The notes under the pieces: model-generated
What the model was told of the DNA's origin: nothing
The model's database searches: none
What the model saw: only the letters and a program-made list of their open reading frames with translations
Part shown: piece by piece, positions 7,206 to 64,000 of the stretch
Position numbering within the stretch: position 1 is the first letter of the stretch
How the letters are laid out: each line of letters starts with the position of its first letter
Translations under genes and position numbers: made by a program
Assembly (NCBI GenBank): GCA_961205875.1
Contig: OY540810.1
Coordinates: forward strand, 23,250,001 to 23,314,000
Length of the DNA: 64,000 nt
Direction: 5' to 3'
DNA from: Sialis fuliginosa
Taxonomy: Eukaryota; Arthropoda; Insecta; Megaloptera; Sialidae

Positions 7206-10200
7206 TATGTATATAAATATTTTTCAAATAAAGTACTAACCATGTCTGAAGAAATTAATATTAATATAATTCTGACACGAAAACAATTAATCACCAATCC
7301 CTGTATTTATAAATAATTGAAATTGATACCTTTAAGGACGGCTTTCAGAAAAATATAAATTAAATTCATAAACATAATTGGCTCTACAGAAACACATGGT
7401 GGTATGTTTATCGAAATTATAGCTTTCAGTGTTTTAAAATTATTTCACTTATCAATAACTGCATGACAACCAGTTTTAAATTGCCTCTTTCTGTCGAATT
7501 GTTGATGTTCAAACAAACGCACCGAGCTTTCGACACTTTCAGGTGTCAAATATGGAAAATATCGCTCGTAAAAACTGTATTATTAAATTTAATTTTCATA
7601 AACCGATACTAGAATTATTGCAATTAACTGAAATATGTTAAACTTGTCATTAAAATATACAAAATAAACAGTTACTCAACCCTTTCATTAATGATGTTTT
7701 TTATAAAAAAATATATTTTCTATTTCTTTGTATTGTAAAATCGTAAGAACTGCTGCGAGTGCCACGGGATTTTGATATACGTATTACTGAGAGTGAAAAA
7801 TACATGTTTCTAATTTTATTTAAAAAAATATTTCTAGTAAACTGATAATAGATAAAAAAAAATTGAATGGAATATACAGGGTAATTTATAACTAGTGTAA
7901 AAAAAATTAACAGTAGATGGAGGATGAAATTCTAAGCAAAAAACTTTATGTGAACTTGTGTCCGGAAATTTTTCGTGAGGGAGCTACAGCCTTTCAAAAA
8001 ATTTTGCCAAAAGTGAGTGTTTATTTAATATCTAGAGAACTCATTGTGATACAGTTATAAGATTTGATACAGGGTTTAGTATTAATACATACATCAAACA
8101 ATCATAATTTAGACCAGGGATGTATGGGGCCAGTAGGCCCGCCGATTTTTATCAACTATTTTTTTGTTCTTTAATTTTTTTCTGAGTAGGGTACTTGTAG
8201 AAGATTAAATGACACAAAATACACAAAAATATACTGTTCATTTATCATAAGATCAACCGTTTTCGAGAAATATTGAAAAATTAAAGTACTACAGAATTTT
8301 ACTTAATACGGATGCTTCAAATAACACTAAATAACTTTATATTCTTGTTTTATAATTAAAAATAAGATAAAAAGTTAATATAAATATACTTCCTAATACT
8401 TGTCATCATAGACTTATAGCCAGTTGTATTACTGTTATGTACTTTACTAAAATTACTAAAATACGAAACTATAAATGACTATTTGTGCAATTTTGGAGGC
8501 ATATTTATAATATCTTTTTATCGTATTTTTAATTATAGAACAAGAATATAAACTTATTTTGTACCTGTTGTTTTGTTCAGAATAACTTTGAAACATACCG
8601 AACTGATTTTAATGAAACTTTCACTGTACAAACGCTTAACACTCTAGAAGTAATTTAAGCAAGATATCATCACGCTGTTCCATGAATGAGCTGAACAGTG
8701 AGTTAGTGAATTACTACTGAACCGATTTTAGTGGGATTTTTATTGTAACATAATGTAGTCAAATCAATGACAAAACAAACACAGCAATAATGTGGCTGGA
8801 TGGCGCGGTAGAGGGAGCTACTATCGTGGCCGGGATGTGGAGCATAAATGAATTTAACTTTAATATTATTTTATAATAATAATATTAAAATTAATGATAT
8901 TTTTATGAAATGTTTTGAAGAATTATTTAACAATACAATTCTGGTAATAAAATGGATTTATAATGCTTGGCTTTTTTGTATACCCCTAAATTGTTTTGAA
9001 TCAACGAAACAATTTGTACATAGCATTATGTATTTGTATTACAAGTCTAATTTAAAATCACACAAAGTACTTGTAGAACATTCATTTAATTTGCGCATCT
9101 TCAGTTAAACGTCATACATGAGAAATAATAATGACGTAATTTCAAAAACATAACTTATAAACAGTGTCAGCTGTATAATATCTTTAAAGAAGTATTAATA
9201 GTTTATTTACCGCAGTAAGACTTCTTTTCCATTAGTTCAGTTAATAGATATTACATGAAATATGAGTTTTTTGCAATGAATCAGATGAACTGAGTAATTT
9301 TGCGTTTTAATTTTTAGGCTCGCATTCTAACATGCCTATTTGCTCAAATTTACTAAGAGATCTAAACGTCATCGAAGTGTACCAATAACTGAAATTTGCA
9401 CAACAAAATTACAGCTTGTGTATTTTTTAGCACAAAACTTCCGCAAAATAATTATTCGTGAATCGGGGTCTTAAAAGATGATTGGAACCTTCTTCCTCAT
9501 TAAATAATGAAGTACAATTGTCAAAATCGTCCCATGCCCTAATACCGTGCTAAACTCATCGTACAAAATGGTACATCTAATGGTGAATAGTTGCCCTAGT
9601 GGTTTATGTGGTTAGTATTTAACCATAACAGTTTGAGATCATACATGTAATTAGTGAGTCCGTAAAAAATATAATAAATATTTTCGCCAAGGTAAGTTTT
9701 TTCGACAAATAGTTACGTATCCGTGTAGAGTAGTGTATATGCAAGGTACTTTTATACTTTTTGTCGGCCTAAGATTGCTGAAGGATAGAGATTAAAGAGA
9801 TGTATATGGATTAAAAACAAACACACACAAATCATGTTACGATTCTCGCGGGCTGAGTTTTTCTTACAATTAGTCGTAAGTTGCCTTATATCGTCCCCAA
9901 TATCATTCAAGGGACACTCTCAAAGATTACGCTAAATAGTCAAATAAGACCCCAGAAGAGCATATAACTTTGATATACTATATAGAAAAAATTCTATAGA
10001 CATTTTCGTATATTTATATTTAAAATATTAGGATACGAAAAATATTATAACTGATTTTGTAACTCTTAAAAAATGAATTGTTTTTCTTGCTCAAATTTTC
10101 TGTCAAGTTGATTTCATAAGTAAATTCTAATAAATGGGTAAATTTCTAATGTGTGCTGTGAGTTTTAGTGATTTTTCCCTAAAAGTATTAGATTTATTTA

Positions 10201-23193: not shown

Positions 23194-23637
23194 GGGTCGT
23201 TCCAGACTATCGAGCCGGTCTAGGTTCTGTCTCACTCCAATCAAATCTTATGATATTCACATTAACGAGCCGGTCTCGGTCCGATCTTGCTCTAATAAAA
23301 TATAAATAAACAATAAACAATGAAATCATTCACACTATAGGTATCGGTCAGATTTCGGTCCAATCACGCTCCGATACGAAGAATATTTTACTGGAGCGTG
23401 ATCGAACTTGGCATAGATTTTACCCATAGTGTGAATAGGAACTTCAGTTCGTCTTCAATCATTCTAGTACTGATCATCGAGTAAAGCGTGATCTAAACTT
23501 GCGAGATAAAATAATATGAACACCATAAGATTTGATTGGAGCGAGAGTGGACCGAGACCGGCTCGTTAATGTGAATATCATAAGATTTTATTGGAGCGAA
23601 ACCGGTTCATGACCGGCTCGATCGTTTGGATCGACCC
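23194..23637. mobile_element. MITE family G, long form with doubled arms (444 bp)
   Basis: Ends are GGGTCGTTCCAGACTATCG and the reverse complement of GGGTCGATCCAAACGATCG, followed by GAGCCGG on each side. Each arm holds two direct units about 55 bp apart, both beginning CGAGCCGGTCT (23211, 23266) and mirrored on the right. The centre repeats the same theme (TCGGTCCAATCACGCTCCGA against GGAGCGTGATCG). The relative at 30738-30946 has single arms. No transposase frame and no sure target duplication were seen. Confidence 0.85.
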
Positions 23638-36101: not shown

Positions 36102-36453
36102 ACGAAAAGTGTTTGTCTTGACGTGAAACGGATAAATAAATTTAAAATTTTGAAATTGGAGAACTTTTTTTTTTCTCAATCTGAAACGATCACATAGCTT
36201 CTCGTATCTTCGATATTGCGAGGAAGCAAAAATGTATCAGATAAAAATTGTAGAGAATATAATTATCTATAATTTATGCTCCATCCTTTTTTTTTTTTTT
36301 AACTTTTATTAGTTAGCCAAAAATATTCGTTTTTCATATATTAGTAGATACACGTACACACTGTTTGTTTTCAGTGTTATACGTATGAGAAAGTCCCGTT
36401 GTGGTCATAGCAGTTTTTTTATCTTTGAAATATAATTCACGCCCAATACATAT

Positions 36454-36823
36454 GGAGCATTCCACGCCAAATCACTGAGGTCGTGATCCCGACTATTTTT
36501 GATTTTTGGTATCATTTAGTACTTATTCAGAGTAGCTTCTATGATTTTTTTTCAGATTTGATTTTTTTTTAAATTTTCGATCAACATCAAATACCTGTAA
36601 CTCTGCGAAAAATTGAGGTATTATCGACTTTCTTTTCATTACTTTTTCATTTTTAAACCGAAAAAGTAATTTTTGAAAAAGAGTGCCATTTTATTTTTTT
36701 TGTAAACAAATTCTTGTAAATTCTTCATTTAATTCGAAACATTTTAAGACTATCCGTTCCAAAAATCAGAAGAATCAAAAATAGTCGGGATCACGACCTC
36801 AGTGATTTAGCGTGGAATGCCCT
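36454..36823. mobile_element. Terminal-inverted-repeat element, 370 bp
   Basis: Left GGAGCATTCCACGCCAAATC, ACTGAGGTCGTGATCCCGAC, TATTTTTGATTTTTGG; the right end is its reverse complement with two or three changes and one small indel, for about 60 bp. ATAT sits on both sides (36450-36453, 36824-36827) and may be the target duplication, or TA may be. No coding frame. A weak relative of its tip (CCACTGACATGGAATGGCC) lies near 42730. Confidence 0.88.
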
Positions 36824-37038
36824 ATATGCATTTACGTACATTTTATTTTGAGTTACGGTCACGCACGCTCAAGATCCGATATTTTGAATTTGCTCACGAT
36901 CACGTCATGTCACGACATTACTCGAAAAGTTCACGGCCCGCTCAATCCTATAATTCTAAATTGAATGCATTATTATTACAGTGTTCACATATTGCTTTAA
37001 ATGTAATATTAAAACGGTAGATATTAATAACTAATAAA

Positions 37039-44623: not shown

Positions 44624-44940
44624 CCCAGGAAAATTTTTAAGATCTAATGTGATCAAATCAGATCTTGATAGATCTGCATTTTGAGACAAAATCATATTTT
44701 GTTACTGGTTTTTGATTTGTGGAGACCTGTAATTATCTATAACGATCTACAAAGATTTCTGAAGATCGTTGTAGTTTGTGATAGAAATTGAAACGAATTA
44801 TCAGAGATCTTTGTAGATCGTTGTAGATCTTTGCAGGTCTCCACAGATCAAAAACCAGTAAGAAAATATGATTTTGTCTCAAAATGCAGATCTATCAAGA
44901 TTTGATTTTATCACTTCAGATCTGAAATTTTTTCCCAGGG
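44624..44940. mobile_element. 317-bp near-palindromic MITE
   Basis: Almost the whole element folds on itself, arms of about 140 bp each. Ends CCCAGGAAAA and the complement of CCCTGGGAAA. Blocks that mirror include CTTGATAGATCTGCATTTTG, AGACAAAATCATATTTT, TACTGGTTTTTGAT and TGTGGAGACCTG. The centre is rich in GATC-type words (AACGATCTACAAAGAT). Flanks TAGCTT and TAGTTA may be a worn six-base duplication. The frame 44868-45065 is incidental. Confidence 0.88.
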
Positions 44941-59107: not shown

Positions 59108-59419
59108 AGTATGTATTTTTTTCTTCTATTCGCGCAACAAACTTTTATGGCAATAAATTCAATATAAAATATTATATCTGTTTCAGTGATTACTTCGATA
59201 CTACTTTTTAAAGTATACTTTTTTTTCATTTTAGTACAACTGAAAGCTTATAATTTATTAATAATTATATCATTGATAATTATCTTCTATAACAGACTCT
59301 CGACAAGAATTATAAATAAAGTTGATATCGTCGTATATCCCTGCAAAAAAGATTCATATAATAATAATAATCTTACTGCAATAAGGTCAAATTCAAATAA
59401 ATAATAAAATAGTTATCTT

Positions 59420-59648
59420 GGGTTGCATAAAGCAAAATTAACTACAATTAGTTAATCAGTTGTTTTAAAACCATTATTACGTCAATTCTAAAAAACAATC
59501 ACTGTTATGATATATTTTATAAGGTAAAAAATCAGAATATTTAGTAAATTGTTCATTTACAAATTGAGATTAAGTTTAGAATTAACATTAATCATAGTTT
59601 GAAAATAACTGATTAACTAATTGTGGTTAATTTTGCTTTATGCAACCC
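59420..59648. mobile_element. Near-palindromic MITE (229 bp)
   Basis: GGGTTGCATAAAGCAAAATT, AACTACAATTAGTTAATCAG on the left is mirrored to GCAACCC at 59642-59648 with few changes over at least 55 bp, and pairing continues weakly toward the centre. Flanks GTTAT / GTTAG after three extra paired bases could be a worn duplication. No superfamily hallmark. Confidence 0.85.
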
Positions 59649-59875
59649 GAGGTTAGCTTTATACAGATAGTCGTTTTAGCTTCTTAATAACACATGCATC
59701 AATTTTCAACTTAAAATTATATTTTTATTTCATCATTCAACATTATTGGCGAATCGAAACAATTATATACTTCTGTACATTGCTAAAAATTCAATAATTA
59801 ACATTTGAATTATTATTTAAGTATATTATTAAATACAAAAATCCGTATAATGCGTTTAAAAAAAGCAACCCAGAT
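59649..59875. other. AT-rich spacer
   Basis: Nothing recognised. Confidence 0.4.
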
Positions 59876-63340: not shown

Positions 63341-63638
63341 ACGTTCTGATGTTAGGGTGATTTGTACATGTAAATTGTAATATTACTGGAAAGGTAATAA
63401 TGATAAATGATTATCCCCGCCAAATTCAGGAATTATTTACTTATCAGCATTTAAAACAATTACATTGAAATATTTTATGAAAATTTGATATGACAAAAGT
63501 TAATATAAAATAATAATTTTTATTTTATCAATCAATATTTTATTAAATGTGGCACGATTAGGGGTTGGGGCGCGTAGCGCCCAGGGGCAAAGCCCCTAGT
63601 ATTATATATATTAATATAATAGTAGTGACACAAAATAT

Positions 63639-63760
63639 TAATAAAAACAAACTTGTTTGTCTAAACGTCAAAATTTATTAAAGAAAAGGTAATCGCAAGC
63701 TTTCGATTACCTTTTCTTTCATAAATTTTGACGTTTAGACAAACAAGTTTGTTTTTATTA
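63639..63760. repeat. 122-bp nearly perfect palindrome
   Basis: Arms of 61 bp meet with no spacer at AAGCTT (63697-63702). Only two mismatches were found: 63679/63720 and 63696/63703. The arms carry ACAAACTTGTTTGTCTAAAC and AAAGAAAAGGTAATCG. It starts 40 bp after the Helitron-like right end. The reverse frame 63661-63885 crosses it and is not a gene. It may be a very young foldback, a hairpin RNA precursor or a replication-born inverted duplication. Confidence 0.95.
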
Positions 63761-64000
63761 TTTATATTATATAATATACTGTACAGTATAATGTATAAAA
63801 ATAAATAAAAGTATAAAATATGTATATCTGAAAGAAAAAACATTTTTTTAATACAGTGACTTTGTGAACGCCTTAATAAATACACACACTGATGTAGTAT
63901 TTAGTTGGTTTCTTCACTAACACGTTTCTGTTTTGTTTTACTTTTTTTTATTTTAGCACTGATTGTTTTGAAAGATTCAAGAAAAAAATTGATGCTCTGT
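63761..64000. other. AT-rich edge of the window
   Basis: Nothing recognised. Confidence 0.4.

Follow-up and report, generated by a model that had tools for sequence, protein, structure and literature searches.

A spacerless 122-bp palindrome in Sialis fuliginosa as a probable short insertion of a Penelope-like element

Among the described Penelope-like elements (PLEs), those closest to the sequences considered here are Pen2a_Av and other Penelope elements of Adineta vaga, which likewise have inverted pLTRs (pseudo long terminal repeats) and a 31-bp tail on one pLTR; they also show 8–10-bp direct repeats, palindromes at the pLTR start and a preference for AT-rich targets (PMC3846280). For Poseidon PAc, from Anolis carolinensis, the PLE protein was shown to cleave and extend both DNA strands in vitro; the two start sites of reverse transcription (RT) delimit the tail sequence (PMC11167929). 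Here we describe a 122-bp palindrome from Sialis fuliginosa (Megaloptera; assembly GCA_961205875.1), located in a 64-kb stretch of contig OY540810.1 (C2:23250001-23314000 in a genome of 392 Mb in 20 contigs), to which we refer as the window. We assign a probability of roughly 0.85 to its being a very short, 5'-truncated PLE insertion that carries the 3' end of the element in both orientations, as accounted for by priming on two strands. That it consists of PLE sequence at all is close to certain; the priming step by itself is a tentative proposal, for which we would not claim even odds. The PLE identity was absent from the proposals of the preliminary description of this locus.

The likeness to known systems is partial. 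Compared with the A. vaga elements (PMC3846280), S. fuliginosa has many units without any open reading frame (ORF), which consist of two inverted pieces of the 3' untranslated region (UTR) and a tail and are as short as ~60 bp; the direct repeats are longer (mostly 13 nt) and the copy number exceeds the low one given there. The PAc system shares with our sequences the tail between two RT start sites, AT-rich cleavage, and cleavage and extension of both strands, but it is an in vitro system of a lizard element, its start sites are alike between strands, and it contains a hammerhead motif, which we did not find here with Rfam (PMC11167929). Metazoan retrozymes are likewise short non-coding elements linked to PLE mobility (PMC8969392; PMC7229834), and are regarded as non-autonomous elements that may rely on PLEs (PMC8969392); they differ in carrying hammerhead ribozymes, whereas no hammerhead was found in our units, which are inverted duplications with mostly different junctions. 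The MADE1 elements behind hsa-mir-548, which are miniature inverted-repeat transposable elements (MITEs), are similar in being short, nearly perfect palindromes whose RNA can form long hairpins; they are mariner-derived elements with terminal inverted repeats (TIRs) (PMC1784062), whereas the element described here is PLE-derived and has a one-sided tail.

The palindrome and its parts

The palindrome consists of two 61-bp arms (63639-63699 and 63700-63760) joined at AAGCTT with no spacer. The arms are complementary at 59 of 61 positions, with mismatches at 63679 and 63696 and their respective partners, in agreement with the near-perfect, spacerless palindrome reported in the preliminary description. 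Its zero-spacer palindrome score is 53, compared to 15 for the runner-up in the 64-kb window and to a best score of 12 across 20 simulated 64-kb sequences; it is thus far beyond chance expectation for AT-rich sequence. The earlier suggestion that a transcript would form a long hairpin is also supported, as a prediction: the RNA fold of 63625-63775 has a predicted energy of -75.3 kcal/mol (z = -19.2). Because one mismatch sits four bases from the centre, the RNA hairpin closes on an 8-nt loop, hence the phrase "no loop" is true of the DNA symmetry and not quite of the transcript.

Each arm corresponds to the terminal part of the PLE 3' UTR, the two running in opposite directions, and the PLE tail follows only one of them. 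Compared to the PLE copies at the loci designated L118, L086 and L119, the arms show 86-93% identity. The position of the tail places the window copy on the minus strand. Its parts are as follows:

63600..63608, strand not applicable: possible target-site repeat, left, TATTATATA; with 9 nt the longest string common to both flanks
63612..63642, minus strand: PLE tail of 31 nt, on this side only; it overlaps the outermost 4 bp of the palindrome and is identical to the usual family tail at 27/31 positions
63643..63699, minus strand (sense): 3' arm, comprising the final 57 nt of the PLE 3' UTR; arm plus tail are 88% identical to L118 and 90% to L086
63700..63760, plus strand: 5' arm, an inverted version of that 3' UTR stretch; 86% identical to the opposite strand of L118
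63691..63708, strand not applicable: arm junction, the near-palindromic 18-mer AATCGCAAGCTTTCGATT; longer relatives have it inside a single arm, which reads on through it
63765..63773, strand not applicable: possible target-site repeat, right, TATTATATA

The outermost 4 bp of the 5' arm may represent the beginning of the tail or match it by chance. The window tail has 4 differences in 31 nt, three of them adjacent, and this variant occurs elsewhere only once, at one mismatch; the 3' arm, on the other hand, is identical to an arm of the relative L021 across the aligned stretch. A uniform clock does not fit the tail and the arms together, and a multi-base mutation or an odd priming event may be the cause of the tail differences. 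The centre of the palindrome, GGTAATCGMAAGCTTKCGATTACC, occurs without mismatch at 2 loci and with up to 2 mismatches at 384 loci.

The window copy contains no ORF; it cannot code for a protein and most likely lacks a function of its own. Rfam gave zero matches in the window, and Pfam assigned no family to ten window ORFs. A 21-mer had zero matches in viral contigs, and an 18-mer search of bacterial contigs yielded three matches, which we take as chance.

The left repeat starts directly after the CTAG of a Helitron-like 3' end (63548-63599, with GC-rich hairpins), and the preliminary description had suggested that this end and the palindrome might come from the same event. This link is not supported: the PLE tail (63612-63642) separates the CTAG (63596-63599) from the arms, and the possible 9-bp target-site repeat starting at 63600 also speaks against it. 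Moreover, a Helitron is recognised by its own 3' hairpin and CTRR and by the lack of a target-site repeat; here the CTAG lies outside the element and the family has direct repeats. The window also contains another inverted repeat (44628-44935), with 135-nt arms that are 90% complementary and a 38-nt spacer, as well as fold-back structures at 23194-23637, 8326-8562, 36445-36832 and 59417-59651.

The hairpin family and its parent element

A genome search with the palindrome gave at least 116 matches, with 40 of 1036 candidates scored, and 39 places were fetched. The short relatives are palindromes of ~107-131 bp and the longer hairpins span ~190-365 bp, with arms that extend past the centre of the window copy; at some relatives a single arm was detected. 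Thirty-one two-ended copies were sampled regardless of their tail. A good tail match (at least 20 of 27 nt) was found on one side in 28 of them, with never more than 17 nt matching on the opposite side; L019, L021 and L023 have a good match on neither side. The family tail has a full length of 31 nt, ATTTATATTTAACGTCACTACTATTATATTA. With up to 2 mismatches allowed, its 24-nt core is found at 1829 genomic sites and the reversed control at one.

Direct repeats were tested in 27 copies, those with ends identifiable by our script. On average, their two flanks have a longest common string of 12.1 nt, compared to 6.6 nt in mispaired flanks, and the commonest length is 13 nt (10 of 27 copies). The string reaches 9 nt or more in 25 of the 27 copies, in contrast to 8% of mispaired flanks. 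A target-site repeat is therefore well supported for the hairpin family; the window repeat, being a 9-nt match in simple AT sequence, says little when taken alone.

The tail was also used as a probe, in a sample of 70 loci, all on contig C1 (the start of the list). Within these loci, 71 exact tails lie clear of the stretch ends; 39 belong to hairpins with an inverted arm within 560 nt and 15 have no such arm, 14 lie in a hAT-like MITE, and 3 are other or diverged cases. By extrapolation, the genome may contain many hundreds of hairpins. Private mutations in 28 copies fall 55 times in a single arm and once in both, which shows only that later mutations were not copied between arms. At L018 (C4:27823450-27824370) a hairpin lies inside a larger palindrome, which includes a decayed tail and extends on both sides by ~50 bp or more into the neighbouring sequence.

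The hAT-like MITE (L049, L050, L072, L076 and partly L048) carries the tail core near both of its ends; it has CAGAGGTGTACCGGAATTCC ends and, at L072, an 8-bp repeat CAATTAAT (identified by eye), and it may have captured a Penelope insertion. A link between the hairpins and PLEs by way of L072 proved wrong: the tail there belongs to the MITE, and the GIY-YIG remnant is MITE flank.

The parent of the hairpins can be identified from longer copies. At L086 we found an ORF end, a 3' UTR that ends in the hairpin arm and tail, and then the start of a second ORF copy, which is the tandem arrangement that produces pLTRs (one locus examined). A protein search with the L086 ORF end, in which 150 of 711 genome candidates were scored, revealed dozens of copies at 97-100% identity, so the parent PLE is both abundant and young. 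The open frame at L118 (P0001) has 849 codons and aligns with the ORF at L121 (29% over 819 positions, E 4e-96). The latter matches RVT_1 (9.5e-17) and, below threshold, GIY-YIG (3.9e-4, 21.1 bits vs. a cut-off of 22.6). Thus an ORF combining RT with a C-terminal GIY-YIG domain is attributed to the parent by way of L121, with the GIY-YIG match under the Pfam cut-off. Seven residues (C752, C755, Y759, V760, G761, R770 and H774) are invariant across four ORFs. P0001 also contains what we take to be the YVDD box and the start of the endonuclease (VYSIPCGGC...YVG). Searches with P0001 found no tblastn match in plasmids and only irrelevant matches among solved structures (E 0.1 or worse).

A long PLE copy in C4:21044350-21048300 displays, in this order, a repeat, its own inverted 3' end, the ORF, the 3' UTR, the tail and a repeat. 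The inverted segment of 578 bp (99.65% identical) is the 3' end of the element, joined just upstream of a likely start codon; the tail has 31 nt, and both sides are flanked by CATACATAATATA, direct repeats of 13 bp (identified by eye). The PLE 3' part also makes up a palindrome of 1.5 kb without spacer at L119 (C3:28589300-28591200), which matches its reverse complement at 98.7% identity. The L121-related ORF, the tandem junction, the tail and the direct repeats together identify the parent as a PLE; the window copy shares with it the 3' UTR/pLTR sequence and the tail at one 3' end.

Rfam matches to miRNA families in the loci were all under gathering scores and look like those that any long hairpin would obtain. 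In the arms of diverged subfamilies (e.g. L036, L056 and L070) a motif recurs that consists of CUGA[C/G/A]GA, a small stem and GAAA. It resembles a hammerhead core and is no more than suggestive; Rfam reports none in the scanned loci.

Junctions and possible routes of insertion

As the reach of an arm we took its BLAST extent up the 3' UTR of one reference copy; this reference contains a stretch of ~95 nt that some subfamilies lack, hence reaches past it are approximate. Loci with tail-like sequence at both ends (L018, L026, L063, L086, L111) were set aside, and from 65 rows without tail-like sequence on the 5' side we removed two refetched loci (L052, L068) and four rows that look compound (L028, L055 twice, L108), which left 59 hairpins. 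These have 54 different junction pairs. The reaches of the two arms differ by more than 20 nt in 40 hairpins, by 11-20 nt in 8, by 4-10 nt in 2 and by at most 3 nt in 9; in the hairpins from the tail search a difference of more than 20 nt was seen in 24 of 32. The pairs found twice are 67/67 (the window copy, whose 5' arm thus reaches as far as its 3' arm, and L009), 34/75, 20/20, 227/88 and 16/16. As the junctions are mostly distinct, most hairpins look like separate insertions rather than copies of one miniature element. The copying of one miniature family as a unit was dropped as a general account for this reason; we keep it within the deletion explanation discussed below, in view of the five junction pairs seen twice and of the possibility that deletions altered junctions afterwards. 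Copies with identical outer arms (L024, L026, L027, L036, L039, L043) have differing total lengths and hence differing centres, so a simple order in which the junctions precede the mutations does not hold.

The route that we favour, because the reaches are unequal, the arms begin at opposite ends of the tail and the C4 copy has an inverted 3' end, is the following. The PLE protein would cut both strands of an AT-rich site and prime reverse transcription from each. The two cDNAs would start at opposite ends of the tail, one far and one near, and after halting early on their way up the 3' UTR they would have their ends joined head to head. In the window copy both cDNAs may have halted around the 18-mer AATCGCAAGCTTTCGATT, centred on AAGCTT, where identical ends could anneal; the product would be a palindrome that lacks a spacer and has a single mismatch close to its centre. 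It is conceivable, at somewhat less than an even chance, that two-strand priming is the usual insertion route and that the hairpins are largely separate records of single insertions; in the same reading, spacerless palindromes arise when both cDNA ends halt in one self-complementary stretch.

A number of observations weigh against this account or are neutral. Nearly all hairpins are single-tailed (28/31), whereas the start sites of PAc in vitro show no difference between strands, and the outer end of the 5' arm is not sharp, lying between -4 and 13 nt into the tail. The arms of the window copy are nearly unchanged while its tail has 4 changes in 31 nt, and its repeat is 9 nt of AT sequence. 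Junction overlaps of at least 3 nt occur in 29/59 hairpins (49%) compared to 37% of simulated blunt joins, and those of at least 6 nt in 27% compared to 22%, so the excess is slight; equal reaches (differing by at most 3 nt) are found in 9/59 hairpins and in 6% of simulated joins, and fold-back of a cDNA would give the like. Subfamily markers are concordant between the two arms in 27/27 and 41/41 typed copies (53 examined), so both arms come from one source, as fold-back or copying of a hairpin would also produce; L021 and L044 are discordant at one marker in a looser alignment, and neither was listed by a stricter script. With regard to the parent, P0001 itself has no RT or GIY-YIG match in Pfam, and Rfam (E up to 10) detected no hammerhead ribozyme in L118, L086 and ten other loci, though a diverged motif may escape it.

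The sequence of the window copy is predicted alike by two-strand priming with annealing, by fold-back and by deletion at the 18-mer. Fold-back assumes the same PLE origin and explains the inverted arm by self-priming, in which a local palindrome (here AAGCTT) lets the end of the cDNA pair with itself and prime its own copying. It was inferred for the Penelope elements of A. vaga from palindromes at inverted junctions (PMC3846280), and it agrees with the concordant arm markers in all typed copies and with the equal reaches that meet at a palindrome in the window copy, L009, L053, L067, L069 and L105. Its simple version, however, predicts equal reaches, in conflict with the 40/59 hairpins noted above; it also does not account for the C4 copy, where the inverted 578 bp are the 3' end lying near the likely start codon and not an inverted ORF start, or for the inverted arm being without most of the tail, and we consider it unlikely. 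The other explanation within the same PLE origin is that a longer hairpin, possibly one copied as a unit, lost its centre by deletion, either in the course of reverse transcription or afterwards. The longer relatives have the 18-mer in both arms; being almost identical to its reverse complement, it forms a direct repeat there, and the deletion would fall between the two copies. A similar pattern is repeated at the other palindrome of the arm, ACAAACTTGTTTGT, inside which L053 and L067 have lost everything, being reduced to AAAAACAAACTTGTTTGTTTTT plus tail. The distinct and unequal junctions could then be distinct deletions, with five junction pairs occurring twice. Yet the exact centre is present at only 2 of 384 related loci, copies with identical arms already vary in their centre, so that deletion must outpace point mutation or happen during insertion, and the origin of the inverted arm is left unexplained. 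We regard this route, too, as rather improbable.

Two explanations that deny a PLE insertion fare far worse than two-strand priming and its PLE-based competitors. A remnant of a palindromic TIR transposon, i.e. a MITE in which the palindrome represents two terminal inverted repeats, is suggested by the hairpin shape, the many relatives and the TA adjoining both ends, and MADE1 demonstrates that such elements exist (PMC1784062). Still, a MITE has its inverted repeats at both termini beside the target-site repeat, and here a 31-nt tail lies outside the repeat at one end only; the 5' junctions vary, the direct repeats are long and the arm is PLE 3' UTR. A MITE with a TA target-site repeat was dropped because of the one-sided tail and the long direct repeats, and the whole idea retains a very slight probability. 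An equally faint prospect is a fold-back artefact of assembly or sequencing: inverted duplications are a known class of artefact, but the tail is one-sided, with a private variant, the arms differ by two mismatches, and the same architecture is found at dozens of other loci.

Implications for the insertion of Penelope-like elements

Earlier publications already report inverted pLTRs, tails and palindromic junctions in Penelope elements (PMC3846280; PMC8969392), whereas the literature that we searched describes neither hairpin-only Penelope units at such a copy number nor a survey of their junctions. Hence it is the collection of junctions, rather than the presence of inverted pLTRs and tails, that we consider the interesting part. 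Accounts of PLE insertion differ, with self-priming inferred in a rotifer and two-strand priming observed in vitro for a lizard element. A young PLE that has left many short head-to-head insertions, most of them with a junction of their own, makes these models separable by counting. The case also shows that a genomic palindrome of great length and near-perfect symmetry can be something other than an artefact or a regulatory hairpin.
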